Below are positions 23,739 through 31,957 of a stretch of DNA of 60,234 nt, piece after piece (position 1 is the first letter of the stretch; every line of letters starts with the position of its first letter). This stretch comes from Actinospica acidithermotolerans. Lineage in GTDB: Bacteria; Actinomycetota; Actinomycetes; Streptomycetales; Catenulisporaceae. Under the pieces are notes generated by a model. That model saw only the letters and a list, made by a program, of their open reading frames with translations. It searched no databases and had not been told where the DNA came from. The stretch lies in NCBI RefSeq assembly GCF_018139625.1, contig NZ_JAGSOH010000033.1:1-60234 (forward strand). The letters are read 5' to 3'. The position numbers were made by a program, and so were the translations under genes.

Positions 23739-23940
23739 CGATCAGCGCGCTGCCCCGCTGAGCGGACACCCCGGCTCGGCGGGCCGGCTGCTCGGCGATC
23801 AGCGCCCTACCCTGCTCAGCGGACGCCCCGGCTCGGCGGGCCGGTTCTTCGGCGCAGCGCGCTCCGCCGCCCACCGGACGCCCCGGCTCGGCGGGCCCAC
23901 ACCTCAGCGGTCAGCGCCCTCCGCCGCTCAGCGGACGCCG
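23739..23940. repeat. 57-bp tandem repeat between mca and rmlB
   Basis: Three units begin at 23761, 23818 and 23873 (spacing 57 and 55), a fourth partial unit begins at 23930 and a half unit precedes the first (from about 23739). The invariant core is CCCCGGCTCGGCGGGCC. Between cores the units vary around GATCAGCGCCCT. The last unit runs through the mca stop codon (23928-23930) into its final codons. Apart from this array the 294-bp gap between rmlB and mca holds only the rmlB promoter and GC-rich palindromic sequence near 23707. Confidence 0.75.
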
Positions 23941-25566: not shown

Positions 25567-26067
25567 GTGACCCAGACCAGTGACAACGTCACCTGGCTTA
25601 CCCAGGAAGCGTATGACCGGCTGAAGGCCGAACTGGACTATCTCCAGGGTCCGTACAAGGTCGAGATCGCCAAGAAGATCGAGGCCGCGCGCGAAGAGGG
25701 CGACCTGCGCGAGAACGGCGGCTACCACGCCGCCAAGGAGGAGCAGGGCAAGATGCACGCGCGGGCCCTGCAGCTCGCCCAGATGCTGGAGAAGGCCCAG
25801 GTCGGCACCCCGCCGACCACCGCCTCCGGCACCGCCGCGCCCGGCATGGTCGTGAAGATCGCCTTCGACGGCGACGAGGACGACACGCTGGAATTCCTCC
25901 TCGGCTCCCGCGAGTCCGCGGCCACCGACATCGAGGTCTACTCCCCGCAGTCCCCGCTCGGCTCCGCGATCAACGGCCACAAGGTCGGCGAGAGCGCCAG
26001 CTACGAGCTGCCCAACGGCAAGTCGATCTCGGTGAAGCTCCTGTCGGCGGAGCCGTACACCGGCTGA
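25567..26067 (+). CDS. greA: Transcription elongation factor GreA
   Basis: A 166-residue factor that rescues backtracked RNA polymerase by stimulating transcript cleavage. The coiled-coil N-terminal domain carries the acidic tip EEGDLREN (residues 43-50; most homologues have GDLSEN) followed by YHAAKEEQGKMHAR. The C-terminal domain has SPLGSAINGHKVGESASYELPNGK. GTG 25567 has GAGGAG 4 nt upstream. A 12-bp hairpin terminator follows. Confidence 0.95.
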   Translation: MTQTSDNVTWLTQEAYDRLKAELDYLQGPYKVEIAKKIEAAREEGDLRENGGYHAAKEEQGKMHARALQLAQMLEKAQVGTPPTTASGTAAPGMVVKIAFDGDEDDTLEFLLGSRESAATDIEVYSPQSPLGSAINGHKVGESASYELPNGKSISVKLLSAEPYTG

Positions 26068-26110
26068 CCAGGCCGTTCGGTCCGTCCCGGCTCACCTGCC
26101 GTCTCGTACC

Positions 26111-26145
26111 CGCGCCCCGCTCCCGGTTGAGGAGAGCGGGGCGCG
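26111..26145. terminator. Hairpin terminator between greA and convergent ABC permease
   Basis: CGCGCCCCGCTC (26111-26122) pairs perfectly with GAGCGGGGCGCG (26134-26145) around an 11-nt loop. It lies 43 bp after greA and 21 bp after the opposite-strand gene, so it can serve both. There is no T-run, as is usual in this GC range. Confidence 0.75.
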
Positions 26146-26166
26146 TGGTTGAGAGCGGCCGCTGAC

Positions 26167-27057
26167 TTAAGCGCTCACCGAACGGTACTTCCGGACGGCG
26201 AGCGGGACGAAGAAGGCCAGGATCAGTGCCGACCAGCCGAGGGAGACCCAGCCGGGGTACTGCATCGGGAGCACGTCGGGGACCTGGCCGGGGGCGTAGC
26301 CGGTGGGGTTGCCGAACAGCTCGCGCAGCGCCAGCACCGTCGACGAGATGGGGTTCCACTCGGCGATGGGCTGCAGCCAGCCGGGCAGCGAGGACGTGGG
26401 CACGAAGGCGTTCGAGACGAACGTGACCGGGAAGAGCCAGATGAAGCCGGCCGTGTTCGCCGTCTCGGGGGTGCTGACGGACAGGCCGATGACGGCGCCG
26501 ATCCAGCTCATCGCGTAGGCGAAGATCATCACCAGCAGGAACGCGGCGAGCGCCTTCCAGAAGCCGTTGTGGATGCGCCAGCCCACGGCGAGGCCGCACA
26601 GGGCCATGATCGCGAGGACGAACAGGTTCTGGATCCAGTCGGCGACGGTGCGCCCGAGCAGCACCGCCGATCTGGCCATCGGCAGCGAGCGGAAGCGGTC
26701 GACGAGGCCCTTGTGCAGGTCGTCGGCCAGGCCGACGGCCGTCGTGCCGGTGGTGAAGGCGAGGGTCTGGACGAAGATCCCGGGCAGCAGGTACTCGCGG
26801 TAGGCGTGCGTGCCGCCGCCGGAGACGGGGATCGCGCCGCCGAAGACGAAGGCGAACAGCAGCACGAACATGATCGGCTGGATGGTGGCGAAGACGACCA
26901 TCTCGGGGATGCGGGTCATCCGGCGCAGATTGCGCAGGGTGACGACCCAGCCGTCGTAGAACGCGCCGGTCAGTCCGGGCACGTGGCGGGCTCCGGGGCC
27001 GGAGGACGGGGACGGGGACGAGGGCCCGGATGTGAAGGTCTCGGTGTCCGCGGTCAT
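26167..27057 (-). CDS. ABC-2 type permease, DrrB-like
   Basis: A 296-residue membrane protein with about six spans and the ABC-2 region DDLHKGLVDRFRSLPMARSAVLLGR. A 30-residue polar N-terminus rich in Ser, Pro and Gly precedes the first conserved helix. It pairs with the ATPase gene at 27172-28149, but two 20-codon mini-genes are inserted between them. ATG 27057 overlaps the stop of the second mini-gene (ATGA). The substrate is unknown; the family includes daunorubicin and lipid exporters. Confidence 0.92.
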   Translation of the reverse strand: MTADTETFTSGPSSPSPSSGPGARHVPGLTGAFYDGWVVTLRNLRRMTRIPEMVVFATIQPIMFVLLFAFVFGGAIPVSGGGTHAYREYLLPGIFVQTLAFTTGTTAVGLADDLHKGLVDRFRSLPMARSAVLLGRTVADWIQNLFVLAIMALCGLAVGWRIHNGFWKALAAFLLVMIFAYAMSWIGAVIGLSVSTPETANTAGFIWLFPVTFVSNAFVPTSSLPGWLQPIAEWNPISSTVLALRELFGNPTGYAPGQVPDVLPMQYPGWVSLGWSALILAFFVPLAVRKYRSVSA

Positions 27058-27116
27058 GGTGCCGCCTCCTCCTTCGCGGTCGTCCGGGCGGCTTCCTGGT
27101 GCGCGGTCGCGGTCAT
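27054..27116 (-). CDS. 20-residue mini-gene, second copy, in a 59-bp duplicated junction
   Basis: ATG 27116 opens a 20-codon frame (MTATAHQEAARTTAKEEAAP) ending at TGA 27056-27054. Its start overlaps the stop of the first mini-gene and its stop overlaps the permease start, both as ATGA. GAGGAGG precedes ATG 27116 by 6 nt. The peptide is soluble and resembles the last residues of the ATPase fused behind the first residues of the permease. Translation is inferred only from ribosome site and coupling; a functional product is uncertain. Confidence 0.45.
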   Translation of the reverse strand: MTATAHQEAARTTAKEEAAP

Positions 27117-27201
27117 CGGCCCGCCTCCTCGTTCACCGTCATCCGGGCGGCTTCCTGGTGCGCGGTCGCGGTCATCGGTCCGCCTCCTCGTTCGCCGTGG
27201 G
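27058..27201 (-). repeat. Tandem 59-bp duplication at the ATPase/permease junction
   Basis: Three start codons (27175, 27116, 27057) lie exactly 59 bp apart. The two full units share 52 of 59 bases, the first 34 bases after ATG being identical. Each contains ATGACCGC at its start and GAGGAGGCGG near its end. The ATPase 3' end supplies a third copy of the GAGGAGG segment and the permease 5' end a third copy of ATGACCGCG. Confidence 0.9.
27113..27175 (-). CDS. 20-residue mini-gene, first copy, in a 59-bp duplicated junction
   Basis: ATG 27175 opens a 20-codon frame (MTATAHQEAARMTVNEEAGR) ending at TGA 27115-27113. Its ATG overlaps the ATPase stop (ATGA) and its TGA overlaps the next mini-gene start. 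GAGGAGG from the ATPase tail lies 6 nt upstream of ATG 27175. It differs from the second copy at a few codons. See the finding on this locus. Confidence 0.45.
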   Translation of the reverse strand: MTATAHQEAARMTVNEEAGR

Positions 27202-28149
27202 CTCGGCGGCCTTGCCGGTCAGGGTGAGGAACACGTCGTCGAGGGTGGGCCTGCGCAGCGCGAGGTCGTCGACGGCGATGCCCGCGTTGTCCAGCTCGCG
27301 CACCGTCTCGACCAGCAGTTTCGCGCCGCCTTCGATCGGGGCGAGCAGTTCGCGGGTGCGGCGGTCCACGGTCGGCTCGGCGAGGGCGAGGCGGGCCAGG
27401 ATGCGGGCCGCGTCGTCGAGGCGGTCGCGGTCGTGCACGACGAGTTGCAGGCGTTCGCCGCCGACCTGGGTCTTGAGCTCGTCGGCGGTGCCGCGGGCGA
27501 TGACCTTGCCGTGGTCGACGACGGCGATGGAGTCGGCGAGGCGGTCGGCCTCCTCCAGGTACTGGGTCGTGAGCAGCAGCGTGGCGCCGCCCGCGACGAG
27601 GTCGGCGATGACGTCCCACATCGCGATGCGGGTGCGCGGGTCGAGGCCGGTGGTCGGCTCGTCGAGGAACATCACCGGCGGGCGGACGACGAGCGCGGCG
27701 GCGAGGTCGAGGCGGCGGCGCATGCCGCCCGAGTACGTCTTCGTGGGACGGTCGGCGGCGTCGACGAGTGCGAACTGCTCCAGCAGGGCCGCCGCCCGGC
27801 GCTGCGCGTCCTTCTTGCCGAGGTGGTAGAGCCGCCCGACCATCACCAGGTTCTCCCGGCCCGTCAGGTTCTCGTCCACGGCCGCGTACTGGCCGGAGAG
27901 CCCGATCCGCTCGCGGACCCGCTGCGGCTCGCGCAGCACGTCCAGGCCGAGCACGCTGGCCCGGCCGGAGTCGGGGGTGAGCAGCGTGGTCAGCACGCGC
28001 ACGGCGGTGGTCTTCCCGGCGCCGTTCGGCCCGAGCAGGCCGAGCACGGTGCCCTCGGGGACCTCGAGATCGACGCCGTCGAGCGCGCGGACCGTCTTCT
28101 CCCCCGAGCCGTACGTCTTCACCAGGCCCTCGGCCTCAATCGCCGCCAT
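27172..28149 (-). CDS. DrrA-like ABC transporter ATP-binding protein
   Basis: A 325-residue ATPase with Walker A GPNGAGKTT (residues 40-48), signature YSGGMRRRLDLAAAL, Walker B VMFLDEPTTGLDP and the DrrA C-terminal block RRPTLDDVFLTLTGKAAEP. The tail PTANEEADR is homologous to the ends of the two downstream mini-peptides. ATG 28149 is used, with GGAG 9 nt upstream; GTG 28167 is possible. It forms an exporter with the permease at 26167-27057. Confidence 0.93.
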   Translation of the reverse strand: MAAIEAEGLVKTYGSGEKTVRALDGVDLEVPEGTVLGLLGPNGAGKTTAVRVLTTLLTPDSGRASVLGLDVLREPQRVRERIGLSGQYAAVDENLTGRENLVMVGRLYHLGKKDAQRRAAALLEQFALVDAADRPTKTYSGGMRRRLDLAAALVVRPPVMFLDEPTTGLDPRTRIAMWDVIADLVAGGATLLLTTQYLEEADRLADSIAVVDHGKVIARGTADELKTQVGGERLQLVVHDRDRLDDAARILARLALAEPTVDRRTRELLAPIEGGAKLLVETVRELDNAGIAVDDLALRRPTLDDVFLTLTGKAAEPTANEEADR

Positions 28150-28225
28150 GCTCCGATGCTCCGTCACTCGGCGAACCGGCGCGGCCCGGATCAGCCGTTA
28201 GCGGTACGCGGTGCCGCGGCCTTCG

Positions 28226-28231
28226 AGCCTA
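28226..28231 (-). promoter_or_regulatory. Possible -10 (TAGGCT) of the DrrAB-like unit
   Basis: TAGGCT on the minus strand, preceded by an AT-rich stretch (GTATTTGGT), about 77 nt before ATG 28149. The -35 is unclear. Confidence 0.35.
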
Positions 28232-28299
28232 ACCAAATACGCCGGTCACGGCAGACCTTTTTCGCGGATGACGGCCGGCCCCCCAAGCCGAGAGCACGC

Positions 28300-28920
28300 C
28301 TACAGCCAGCCCTTCGCGCGGGCCAGGGTCAGCGCCTCGGTGCGGTTGCGGGTGCCGGTCTTCTGGATGCAGGCCGAGAGGTAGTTGCGCACGGTGCCCT
28401 CGGACAGGAACAGCTTCGCGGCGATCTCCGCGTTGGTGGCGCCGCCGGCGGAGGCGGCGAGCACATCGCGCTCCCGGCTCGTCAGGGGGTTGACGCCGTC
28501 GGCCAGGGCGGCGGCGGCCAGGTCCGGGTCGATCACCCGCTCGCCCGCGACCACCCGGCGGATCGCGTCGGCCAGCTGCGCGGCCGGGGCGTCCTTGACC
28601 AGGAAGGCGCTGGCGCCGGCCTCCATTGCGCGGCGCAGGAAGCCCGGTCTTCCGAACGTGGTGAGGATCACGATGCGCAGGCCGGGGTAGGCGGCGTGCG
28701 CCCGCTCGGCCGCGCAGATGCCGTCCATGCCGGGCATCTCGATGTCGAGCAGCGCCACGTCCACCTCGGTGCCCGCCGCCTTCGCCGCGGCGAGCGCGTC
28801 GAGCACCTCGTCCCCGCGGCCGACCGTCGCGACGACCTCGAGGTCCGGTTCGAGGTCCAGCAGCGTCGCCAGGGCCTCGCGGATCATCGCCTGGTCTTCG
28901 GCGAGCAGCAGTCTGGTCAC
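28300..28920 (-). CDS. NarL/FixJ-type response regulator (DesR-like)
   Basis: A 206-residue regulator. The receiver domain (about 1-120) has the acidic pair at Glu8-Asp9, phosphoacceptor Asp59 in VALLDIEMPGMDG, and the KDAP lysine. The C-terminal LuxR-type HTH is LTSRERDVLAASAGGATNAEIAAKLFLSEGTVRNYLS. GTG 28920 overlaps the kinase stop by 4 nt, so kinase and regulator are co-translated. The operon order ABC ATPase, permease, kinase, regulator suggests it controls the transporter genes, possibly through the palindrome at 31958-31979. Confidence 0.93.
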   Translation of the reverse strand: MTRLLLAEDQAMIREALATLLDLEPDLEVVATVGRGDEVLDALAAAKAAGTEVDVALLDIEMPGMDGICAAERAHAAYPGLRIVILTTFGRPGFLRRAMEAGASAFLVKDAPAAQLADAIRRVVAGERVIDPDLAAAALADGVNPLTSRERDVLAASAGGATNAEIAAKLFLSEGTVRNYLSACIQKTGTRNRTEALTLARAKGWL

Positions 28921-30140
28921 GGACCGAGCCTAATCGGCACCGTCGCGGTGAGGCGGTATCCGCACGGACTCACCGGACAGGCGGTGAGCGCGGCGTCCGG
29001 GGAGATGGCGAGCAGCCGTTCGCGCAGGCCGGTGAGGCCGTTTCCGGCGGACGCGGTCGCGTCGGCGGGGGTGACGGGGCCGTCGTCGAGGACTTCCAGC
29101 GTCAGCGAGGGCTCGCCGTCCACGCGGGCGTCGATCAGCCGGACCCGGCAGGTGCGGGCGCCGGAGTGCCGGACCACGTTCGTGACGGCCTCGCGCAGGC
29201 ACCAGGCGAGCGCCGACTCCGCGTCGGGGTCGGCGGTGCCGGACCGCGCGGCGATCGACGGGTCGATGTCGGGCTTGATGCCGGCGGCGCGCAGGGCCGT
29301 GCGGGCGGAGGACGCCTCCACGGCGAGCGTCGCGCGGCGGTAGCCGGAGACCGCCTCGCGGATGTCGGCCAACGCCTCGCGGGAGACGTGTTCGAGGTCG
29401 AGGATCTGCTGCTCGCTGCGGTCCACGTCCACCCGCAGCAGTTTGCGCGCGAGCTCCGCCTTGAGCGTGATCGTGGCCAGCGAGTGCCCGGCCAGGTCGT
29501 GCAGGTCGCGCGCCATCCGCAGCCGTTCCTCGCTGGCCGCCAGCCGCGCCACCTCCGCGCGCGCCTGCTGCAGCTGCCTGATCAGGTTCCGCATGCCGCG
29601 TACCGCGATGACGCCGAGGCAGGAGAAGAGGCACGGCAGCAGCAGGAGCAGCCATGAGCTGGTGGGAACGCCCAGGGCCGCGGACTCCACGGCCATCGCG
29701 ATCGTCGCGGCGAGCCCGCCGAGCAGCGCCGGGGATGGCGGCTTGCGCAGCGGGAGCGCGCCGCCGCAGGCGCTCGCCACGTAGATCCACAGCACCACCC
29801 ACTCCGGATCCACGGTCGGCGGGAGCACCGTCGCGACGGCAGCGAGCACTCCGATCAGCCCGAGCTTGCGCCGGTCGCCGTACTCGCCGGACGGCAGCAC
29901 GGCGGCTTCCTGGCGGACGATCAGGTTCACCGCCACGTACGCGGCCGAGAAGACCGCGACGCACACGAGCGTGACGGCGACGGCCACGTCCGTGTGCGGG
30001 TGATCGCGGTGGTCGAACAGCCGGGAGAGCGGGTCGGCCAGGTAGATCAGCCAGATCGCGGCGAACACCCATCCCGCCCGATTCCTGCCGGGATCGAACG
30101 GGATGTCGCGAACGTTCTCACCGGTGTCGTGCTGAGTCAT
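28917..30140 (-). CDS. DesK-like sensor histidine kinase
   Basis: A 407-residue membrane kinase. About five hydrophobic segments occupy residues 22-180 with almost no extracytoplasmic domain, so it probably senses the membrane itself. A coiled coil leads to the HisKA_3 box RMARDLHDLAGHSLATI with phosphoacceptor His214, then the ATPase domain with REAVTNVVRHSGA (N box) and GNGLTGLRERL (G box). ATG 30140 follows the permease stop by 10 bp. Confidence 0.93.
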   Translation of the reverse strand: MTQHDTGENVRDIPFDPGRNRAGWVFAAIWLIYLADPLSRLFDHRDHPHTDVAVAVTLVCVAVFSAAYVAVNLIVRQEAAVLPSGEYGDRRKLGLIGVLAAVATVLPPTVDPEWVVLWIYVASACGGALPLRKPPSPALLGGLAATIAMAVESAALGVPTSSWLLLLLPCLFSCLGVIAVRGMRNLIRQLQQARAEVARLAASEERLRMARDLHDLAGHSLATITLKAELARKLLRVDVDRSEQQILDLEHVSREALADIREAVSGYRRATLAVEASSARTALRAAGIKPDIDPSIAARSGTADPDAESALAWCLREAVTNVVRHSGARTCRVRLIDARVDGEPSLTLEVLDDGPVTPADATASAGNGLTGLRERLLAISPDAALTACPVSPCGYRLTATVPIRLGP

Positions 30141-30150
30141 GGCGGTCCGG

Positions 30151-30882
30151 TCAGTCCTCGGCGCGCTTCTGGTACATGACCGCGGCCAAGATCGCGCAGC
30201 CGACGACCCACGCGGCCAGGATCGCCACGCCTCCCCAGCTGATCGGCTGGCCCGAGATCACCTGGGTGGCGATCTCGCGCACCCAGTAGGTGGGCAGCGC
30301 CTTGCCGATCGTCTCCAGCGTGCCGGAGACCGCGAAGAACTGGCCGCCGAGGAAGGAGCCGGCGACGTAGATGATCAGCGTGGCCGGCTGCACCGCGTCC
30401 TGCGGCACGCCGTAGCCGATCGCGATGCCGAGCGCGGTGAAGGCCAGCGAGCCGAGCCAGATCACCAGGAAGGCGGAGACCCACTCCTCGCCGCTCAGCT
30501 TCACGCCCTGCGTGGTGCCGAGCAGGAAGGTGACGACGATCGCCGGGATCACCACGAGCAGCGAGGCGGCGATCTTGCTGACCACGTAGCCGTAGCTGGG
30601 CAGCGCCGTCAGCCGCAGCTGCCGGATCCAGCCCTCCTTGCGCTCCTGCGAGATGCGCATCGCGTTGTTGTTCAACGACGCGGCGATCACGCCGAAGGAG
30701 GCGTAGGCCACCAGGAAGTAGTCCACGTACGGGATGTCCGTGCCCGGCACGTTCTTCCCCTTGACGCTGCTCGCGCTGAGCAGGAAGAGCATCGCCGGGT
30801 ACAGGATGGTGAAGAACATCACCCGCCGGTTGCGCAGCGACCTGACGATCTCCAGCCGGCCGAGTGCCATCACGCCGCTCAT
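30151..30882 (-). CDS. ABC-2 type permease linked to two-component system
   Basis: A 243-residue protein with six predicted spans, beginning GVMALGRLEIVRSLRNRRVMFF. The segment ISQERKEGWIRQLRLTALPSYGYVVSKI is the ABC-2 coupling region. ATG 30882 overlaps the ATPase stop (ATGA). With the ATPase it would form a half-transporter dimer; the linked kinase suggests a role in response to membrane or antibiotic stress (inference). Confidence 0.92.
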   Translation of the reverse strand: MSGVMALGRLEIVRSLRNRRVMFFTILYPAMLFLLSASSVKGKNVPGTDIPYVDYFLVAYASFGVIAASLNNNAMRISQERKEGWIRQLRLTALPSYGYVVSKIAASLLVVIPAIVVTFLLGTTQGVKLSGEEWVSAFLVIWLGSLAFTALGIAIGYGVPQDAVQPATLIIYVAGSFLGGQFFAVSGTLETIGKALPTYWVREIATQVISGQPISWGGVAILAAWVVGCAILAAVMYQKRAED

Positions 30883-31835
30883 CGGGCGTCCTCCGTTTCG
30901 GTCGTCTCGACGGCGTCCCCGTTGTCCCGCTCGGTGATCGCCACGAAGGCCTGCTCCAGGCCGAGCGCGCTGATCTCGATCTCCATCGGGCGCAGACCCT
31001 GGTCGAGCAGGGCGTAGAAGGTCTTGTCCGAATCCGAGGTCTGGATCTGGACGTGGTCGTGCAGCACGTCGAGCGAGACCACGTGCGGCAGGTTCAGCAG
31101 CTGCTCGCGGGTGACGCCGGGCAGCCGGAAGGCGATCCTCTGGAAGCCGGCCATCGCCTTGATGTCGGAGACCGAGCCGTTGGCCAGCAGCCGCCCCTTG
31201 TTGATGACGACCACCTGGTCGGCGATCTGGTCCGCCTCCTCCAGGTAGTGCGTGGCGAACAGCACGGTCTTGCCGCGCTCCGCCTCGTCCTTCATGGAGT
31301 TCCAGAAGATGTGCCGGTTCTCCACGTCCATGCCGGTGGTCGGCTCGTCCAGCACGATCAGGTCGCTGTCCCCGGCGATCGCGATGGCGAAGCGGACCCG
31401 CTGGGTCTGCCCGCCGGACAGCTTCCCGGCGCGCCGGTCGGCCAGGTCGGCGATGTTCGCGCGCAGCAGCACCTCGTCCACCCTCAGCGGCTTCGGGTGC
31501 AGCTTCGTCATCAGCGTGAGCAGCTCACGCACCGTCACGTCGGCGGGCAGCCCGCCGGACTGCAGCATCGCGCCGACGTGCCCGGCCGTCATGGCCTGCC
31601 GCGGCGGCTTGCCGAAGACCTCCACCCGGCCGCTGGACGCGTGCTTGAGCCCCAGCAGGATCTCCATGGAGGTCGACTTGCCCGCCCCGTTCGGGCCGAG
31701 GAAGGCGATCGCGCGGCCCTGCGGCAGCTGCAGGCTCAGCTCGCGCACCGCCTGCACCGGGCCGTAATGCTTGGAGACCTGCTCGAAGGAGACCGCGGGT
31801 ACCTCCGGGTCTCCGACGAGCCTCTCGTTGCTCAT
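30879..31835 (-). CDS. ABC transporter ATP-binding protein linked to two-component system
   Basis: A 318-residue ATPase with Walker A GPNGAGKST (residues 47-55), signature KLSGGQTQRVRFAIAI, Walker B LIVLDEPTTGMD and switch histidine FATHYLEEADQ. The C-terminal roughly 100 residues form the usual extra domain of this class. ATG 31835 is used; GTG 31856 in frame is an alternative. It is the first gene of a four-gene operon (ATPase, permease, kinase, regulator), all overlapping or within 10 bp. Confidence 0.92.
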   Translation of the reverse strand: MSNERLVGDPEVPAVSFEQVSKHYGPVQAVRELSLQLPQGRAIAFLGPNGAGKSTSMEILLGLKHASSGRVEVFGKPPRQAMTAGHVGAMLQSGGLPADVTVRELLTLMTKLHPKPLRVDEVLLRANIADLADRRAGKLSGGQTQRVRFAIAIAGDSDLIVLDEPTTGMDVENRHIFWNSMKDEAERGKTVLFATHYLEEADQIADQVVVINKGRLLANGSVSDIKAMAGFQRIAFRLPGVTREQLLNLPHVVSLDVLHDHVQIQTSDSDKTFYALLDQGLRPMEIEISALGLEQAFVAITERDNGDAVETTETEDAR

Positions 31836-31957
31836 CCTTGTCTCATCCCCAGTCACTCGACGTGCGTCCCCCCGTGAGCCCGTACCCCGGGCCGGGAACG
31901 CTACGACAAGCTAACCGGGAACCGGCTGCTCCGCATCAGTGTGCGTAGTCGTGACAC

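Follow-up and report, generated by a model that had tools for sequence, protein, structure and literature searches.

The ATPase/permease junction

The window, the whole stretch of 60,234 nucleotides of Actinospica acidithermotolerans DNA that we analysed, carries on its minus strand an ABC ATPase of the DrrA type (27172 to 28167; PF00005; TIGR01188 drrA at 358.4 bits, cut-off 312.45), followed by an ABC-2 type permease of 296 amino acids (26167 to 27057; PF01061 above cut-off). The permease is DrrB-like, with scores that lie below the cut-offs of both DrrB models, TIGR01247 (69.7 bits, cut-off 223.05) and TIGR00025 (75.2 bits, cut-off 146.9). Upstream of the ATPase, on the same strand, are a response regulator (28300 to 28920), a histidine kinase (28917 to 30140) and a second ABC pair, consisting of a permease (30151 to 30882) and its ATPase (30879 to 31856). 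These two pairs served as controls. The kinase and the regulator share a plain 4-nt overlap (28917 to 28920), as do the second ATPase and its permease (30879 to 30882), with no unit between them. Translational coupling of DrrAB is reportedly the subject of one paper.

At the junction of the DrrA-type ATPase and its permease, minus-strand ATGs lie at 27175, 27116 and 27057, spaced 59 + 59 bp. The TGA of the ATPase is part of a first ATGA (27172 to 27175), which opens mini-ORF 1, MTATAHQEAARMTVNEEAGR and a stop codon (27113 to 27175; 59-bp unit 1, 27117 to 27175). The stop of mini-ORF 1 overlaps in a second ATGA (27113 to 27116) with the start of mini-ORF 2, MTATAHQEAARTTAKEEAAP and a stop codon (27054 to 27116; unit 2, 27058 to 27116), and the third ATGA (27054 to 27057) joins the stop of mini-ORF 2 to the permease start. 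A Shine-Dalgarno GGAGG stands ahead of each ATG at a 7-nt spacer, at 27183 to 27187 for mini-ORF 1, 27124 to 27128 for mini-ORF 2 and 27065 to 27069 for the permease. Every 59-bp unit forms an ORF of 20 codons, has a GGAGG to itself and is bounded by ATGA overlaps on both sides; the stop/start overlap is present at all steps of the array, and all frames are open. This arrangement had been described in an earlier, sequence-only reading, and it was confirmed on the sequence, as was the statement that the units close their own frames and disrupt neither large gene. The ATPase stop and the permease start are now 114 nt apart, a distance spanned by the two mini-ORFs. An alternative permease start further upstream was ruled out, as the frame holds no further ATG, GTG or TTG upstream of 27057, its sole start.

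Tandem Repeats Finder gives the array a score of 249, a period of 59 and 2.5 copies, rank 2 of 15 rows in the window. A further tandem array in the window has 3.6 copies of a 57-bp unit (0 mod 3) at 23739 to 23939; it lies between two genes on the minus strand and extends in part over the end of the upstream gene.

The two units agree at 52 of their 59 positions, without any difference in the first 34 bases. Among the seven differences one is synonymous and six change the peptide, where about 25% synonymous changes would be expected at random; the test is weak at this number. On this weak test we rejected selection on the peptide, and the earlier suggestion of a route to new small genes found no backing in it. 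The mini-ORF peptides are probably by-products. A sub-duplication within the unit (33 + 26 bp) was also rejected, with an alignment score equalled by 193 of 2000 shuffles.

Probable local origin of the units

The permease is carried by 13 of the 14 genomes of the family (E <= 1e-90). Comparison of the junction in relatives, which the sequence-only reading had proposed, revealed a difference in copy number: among 13 complete family junctions, units are present only at the window junction (two copies), while the other 12 of 12 have a plain 4-nt overlap and zero units. The two congeners have zero units. Among 79 complete loci of a broader set, 75 overlap, 73 by 4 nt and 2 by 1 nt; the four loci not scored as overlapping are L071, L075 and L076, where the alignment-derived permease frame was broken though the ATPase ends in ATGA or GTGA, and L099, where the ATPase frame ended early. 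In the census of ABC loci the contigs of L004 and L032 were without ATPase. Of 16 paralogous pairs, 11 have a 4-nt overlap, 3 a 1-nt overlap and 2 neither. Because the 12 other complete family junctions lack units, the 59-bp units were, judging by this comparison, gained in this lineage.

A search with a 171-bp query (E <= 0.001) placed the unit at one site only in the 7,888,256 bases of this draft genome of 422 contigs. The last 23 bp of the unit differ from the ATPase tail at 2 positions (score 36); the best of 1000 mononucleotide shuffles scored 33, so that none was as good, and the resemblance proposed earlier stands. The companion proposal, that the mini-ORFs begin like the permease, fared less well: there is an exact match, which extends over 9 bp only and was equalled by 152 of 1000 shuffles, and it is weak alone. 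If the junction were copied in tandem, each unit would receive both a permease-like start and an ATPase-like tail.

The C-terminal tails of the ATPase in loci L010 to L020 vary greatly in length and are rich in short repeats, such as AQAAQAAQAAR in L020. These variable tails are likely a slippage hot spot. In Actinospica durhamensis (G001) the permease ortholog is split across two contigs near codon 75 (L020, 2300 to 3200, and L004, 1 to 900), and what by eye appears to be a recombinase gene adjoins the break. Possibly, an integrated element lies within the permease gene of that strain.

Copied junctions and their lengths in actinobacteria

The 59-bp duplicated junction is not a unique case. 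When this genome was scanned for paired SD-ATGA sites, a second cassette came to light (G000:C372), with a unit of 65 bp (2 mod 3) and the peptide MSTAVEARQAERLPGMRWEAAS. The upstream gene ends in EWEAAS and the downstream gene starts with MSTAVEQVER, and the peptide resembles the downstream gene at its start and the upstream gene at its end. We take the flanking genes to be of the WYL/PafBC type. The 13 loci compared at this junction were the cassette itself, L253, which lacks the gene start, and 11 readable relatives; all 11 are without a unit, and their upstream ORF (367 to 498 codons) ends right on the start overlap. Because of this second cassette and of similar arrays in other assemblies, an assembly error is less likely as the source of the 59-bp array.

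We surveyed 745 different actinobacterial genomes (G000 to G744) in class and order sets that overlap. Since the pattern required two GGAGG motifs and a second spacer of 7 nt, the counts are lower bounds. Matches were found in 35 of 394 class genomes and 51 of 391 order genomes, and a search for shorter units matched in 43 of 293 genomes, which belong to the order set; reversed patterns gave 3, 2 and 2 matches in the class, order and shorter-unit searches. The 144 adjacent SD-ATGA pairs that we tabulated collapsed to 125 arrays, of which 91 were kept because both flanking ORFs had at least 60 codons, and 34 were counted apart. An array was called duplicated when at least 15 of 18 bases matched at its two junctions, 9 of which the pattern itself dictates if both spacers have a length of 7.

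Length matters by the arithmetic of ATGA overlaps. If a unit is 2 mod 3 long, the mini-ORF closes on the next ATGA; a copied junction of length 0 mod 3 extends the downstream gene in frame, and one of length 1 mod 3 closes on neither. Fifty of the arrays flanked by ORFs of 60 codons or more are duplicated, and their first unit is 2 mod 3 in 40, 0 in 9 and 1 in 1. With one vote per gene family (n = 36) the numbers are 30, 6 and 0 (p = 9e-10 against one third), and stricter cut-offs for duplication retain the bias (31 of 40, 24 of 30 and 10 of 13). Other actinobacteria thus have comparable copied junctions, and most of these are of a length at which the successive reading frames stay closed. The non-duplicated pairs between ORFs (n = 41) are distributed 31/7/3 over the residues 2, 0 and 1, or 22/3/2 by family. 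Outside long ORF pairs, 13 duplicated arrays have residues 0/1/2 of 3/5/5, which differs from the arrays between ORFs (Fisher p = 0.006). A control with ATGB gave residues 0/1/2 of 17/19/21 in 57 uncollapsed rows, in which some places recur or are homologous and one row allows two lengths; this control is at chance level, the reversed pattern having matched about as often, and it shows an unbiased search rather than the behaviour of real non-overlapping junctions.

In 21 duplicated arrays the resemblance of tail and head to the neighbours exceeded that of all 1000 shuffles, and likewise the head resemblance in 25 non-duplicated arrays. As tail resemblance over the last 4 residues is built into the definition of a duplicated array, the shuffle test used only residues outside the defining stretch.

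The bias in reading frame is hard to explain otherwise and therefore suggests that ribosomes read the mini-ORFs at least sometimes. By itself it does not separate a useful relay from the avoidance of harm. The length rule, read from sequence alone, is evidence for a possibly routine restart of ribosomes on mini-genes of 6 to 24 codons between the genes of operons. Genes of this size are usually skipped by gene finders.

Several of these junctions vary between species. A 26-bp unit is present twice in G422 and once at the same junction in G549 and G410, and a 23-bp unit twice in G443 and once in G633. Where the downstream gene starts with MTWHV or MSWHV, at what is presumably the junction of a sigma/anti-sigma pair, mini-ORFs measuring 71, 62 or 47 bp (each 2 mod 3) were found in several genomes of the order, in 9 of 12 loci grouped by downstream similarity (L130, L135, L136, L156, L164, L173, L176, L182 and L190); their peptide is poorly conserved. 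The remaining three loci are in frame (42, 18 and 18), and two of them have a different upstream tail. At the MTWHV/MSWHV junction and in the 26-bp and 23-bp cases, frame and overlap are kept while the peptide drifts. In G537, an array of three 32-bp units copies the local tail PDYAEGYR; at the other 29 loci of this gene, the 220 nt ahead of it hold no more than one SD-RTGA site. A natural series of 0, 1, 2 and 3 units would allow the cost of each reinitiation step to be measured.

G272 carries, before different genes at three places (L142, L144 and L145), a 68-bp unit (2 mod 3) with the mini-ORF MTE.VEVI...TLVRRPTEE.A, with 62 to 65 of 68 bases identical. To judge from these copies, this unit is dispersed in the manner of a MIRU, in a different actinobacterium of the class.

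A proposed translational relay and its known relatives

The anatomy of the junction, the absence of units from orthologous junctions, the reappearance of such arrays elsewhere in this genome and among other actinobacteria, and the surplus of units 2 mod 3 in length lead us to propose that the junction was probably duplicated locally and that the copies act as a translational relay, which would preserve the coupling of the ATPase to the permease. Most simply, two rounds of local tandem duplication would have copied a 59-bp stretch across the overlap of ATPase stop and permease start. With its Shine-Dalgarno site and ATGA, and with a start like that of the permease and a tail like that of the ATPase, each copy would form a chimeric cistron of 20 codons. 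We infer that the mini-ORFs are translated and that a ribosome would pass from the end of the ATPase to mini-ORF 1, then to mini-ORF 2 and then to the permease, with a restart at each ATGA. Coupling would in this way be kept across the 114 nt now parting the two genes, likely at the cost of a modest attenuation of the permease with each added step. Tests in Haloferax and E. coli found strict coupling of overlapping gene pairs in 13 of 14 cases (PMC6728339), and according to part of PMC12548453 a short ORF may serve just to deliver a ribosome to the next start. The self-insulation pointed out in the earlier reading is not a special design; it follows from duplication of an ATGA junction by a length of 2 mod 3, a class enriched among such duplications.

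Several points speak against a relay. The frame bias could stem from the purging of lengths harmful to the downstream gene, without selection for a relay, and it is not specific to gene pairs, because a length of 2 mod 3 also prevails (14 of 21) in non-duplicated SD-ATGA pairs that lie outside long ORF pairs. Ten of the 50 duplicated arrays depart from the rule, and the unit start matches the permease start over 9 bp only. With a strong GGAGG at every ATG, de novo initiation could render reinitiation needless. This last point also favours a neutral, harmless slip, after which the genes initiate from their own Shine-Dalgarno sites and the mini-ORFs are barely read. The six peptide-changing differences and the lack of such arrays in the checked relatives are consistent with such an inert duplication; we consider it unlikely, as unread units should fall evenly into the length classes, whereas 40/9/1 was found between long ORFs. 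It is also conceivable, if rather doubtful, that gain and loss of units tune the permease relative to the ATPase under selection, which would add to a relay and not exclude it. Such a dial fits the differences between species at the 26-bp and 23-bp junctions and, as described in a portion of PMC2734929, the correlation of the M. tuberculosis fpg1 mRNA level with the length of an upstream tandem repeat. However, the fpg1 case concerns mRNA and not coupling, and both congeners have zero units. The claim of a copy-number-variable element survives in part: the units were apparently gained in this lineage, and copy number varies between species at those two other junctions.

Insertion of a mobile MIRU-like element at the ATGA seems very improbable to us. 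The architecture is shared, namely a small ORF coupled to its neighbour at -4 nt (in passages of PMC12548453), but the 59-bp unit is at one place in 7.9 Mb, on which ground we rejected a dispersed or mobile element, and its 3' part copies the local ATPase tail, which an insertion would not supply. Equally remote is an intergenic RNA structure or attenuator. A predicted fold does pair GCCGCC with GGCGGC near the Shine-Dalgarno site of the permease, but most shuffles fold better than the 271-nt region (z = +1.76), and single stretches give z values of -0.99, 0.35 and 0.67. No Rfam family reached its cut-off in 26000 to 28400, and no terminator-like site was found. With folding that is not unusual, we rejected an RNA switch or terminator.

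Beyond this locus, it is possible, and we put it forward tentatively, that duplication of ATGA junctions is a general actinobacterial route to chains of relay mini-cistrons. Such chains would be read by ribosomes and would persist mainly at lengths of 2 mod 3 (or in frame at 0), the number of links would be an evolvable dial on the ratio of the flanking proteins, and mobile MIRUs would be the dispersed form.

No paper was recognised, judged by titles and abstract openings, as describing junction-duplication arrays outside mycobacteria. Several known systems share parts of the arrangement. Like 4-nt overlapping gene pairs with termination-reinitiation (in passages of PMC6728339), the array has an ATGA overlap and a Shine-Dalgarno site at each step, but it puts two very short cistrons in series. 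In natural uORFs and engineered coupling, as part of PMC12548453 describes them, a short ORF likewise brings the ribosome to the next start, whereas the 59-bp mini-ORFs are tandem copies between two long operon genes. The axe-txe minigenes also lie just ahead of a gene and alter its translation in cis; however, this pair of minigenes belongs to a toxin leader, its main member has two codons, and neither is a copy of a gene junction (both from a portion of PMC8708949). The closest known system is the MIRU. These units are 40 to 100 bp long and occur at 41 places in H37Rv, 12 of them polymorphic in copy number (sections of PMC2734929), and those of senX3-regX3 measure 77 and 53 bp and differ between strains (sections of PMC4213456). 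MIRUs too sit at start codons as short units whose ORF is coupled at -4 nt (part of PMC12548453), and 77, 53 and 59 bp are all 2 mod 3 (MIRU lengths from the same sections of PMC4213456). The 59-bp unit agrees with them in size and in its ORF, with ATGA at both ends and coupling predicted from the overlap. Between species its copy number is 2 against 0. MIRUs are, by description, one dispersed and apparently mobile sequence family, whereas the 59-bp unit appears to be made from its own two neighbours and lies at a single place in the genome. Because it is not dispersed we do not call it a MIRU, and by analogy we regard it as MIRU-like in its working, which would provide a local origin for such an architecture outside mycobacteria.
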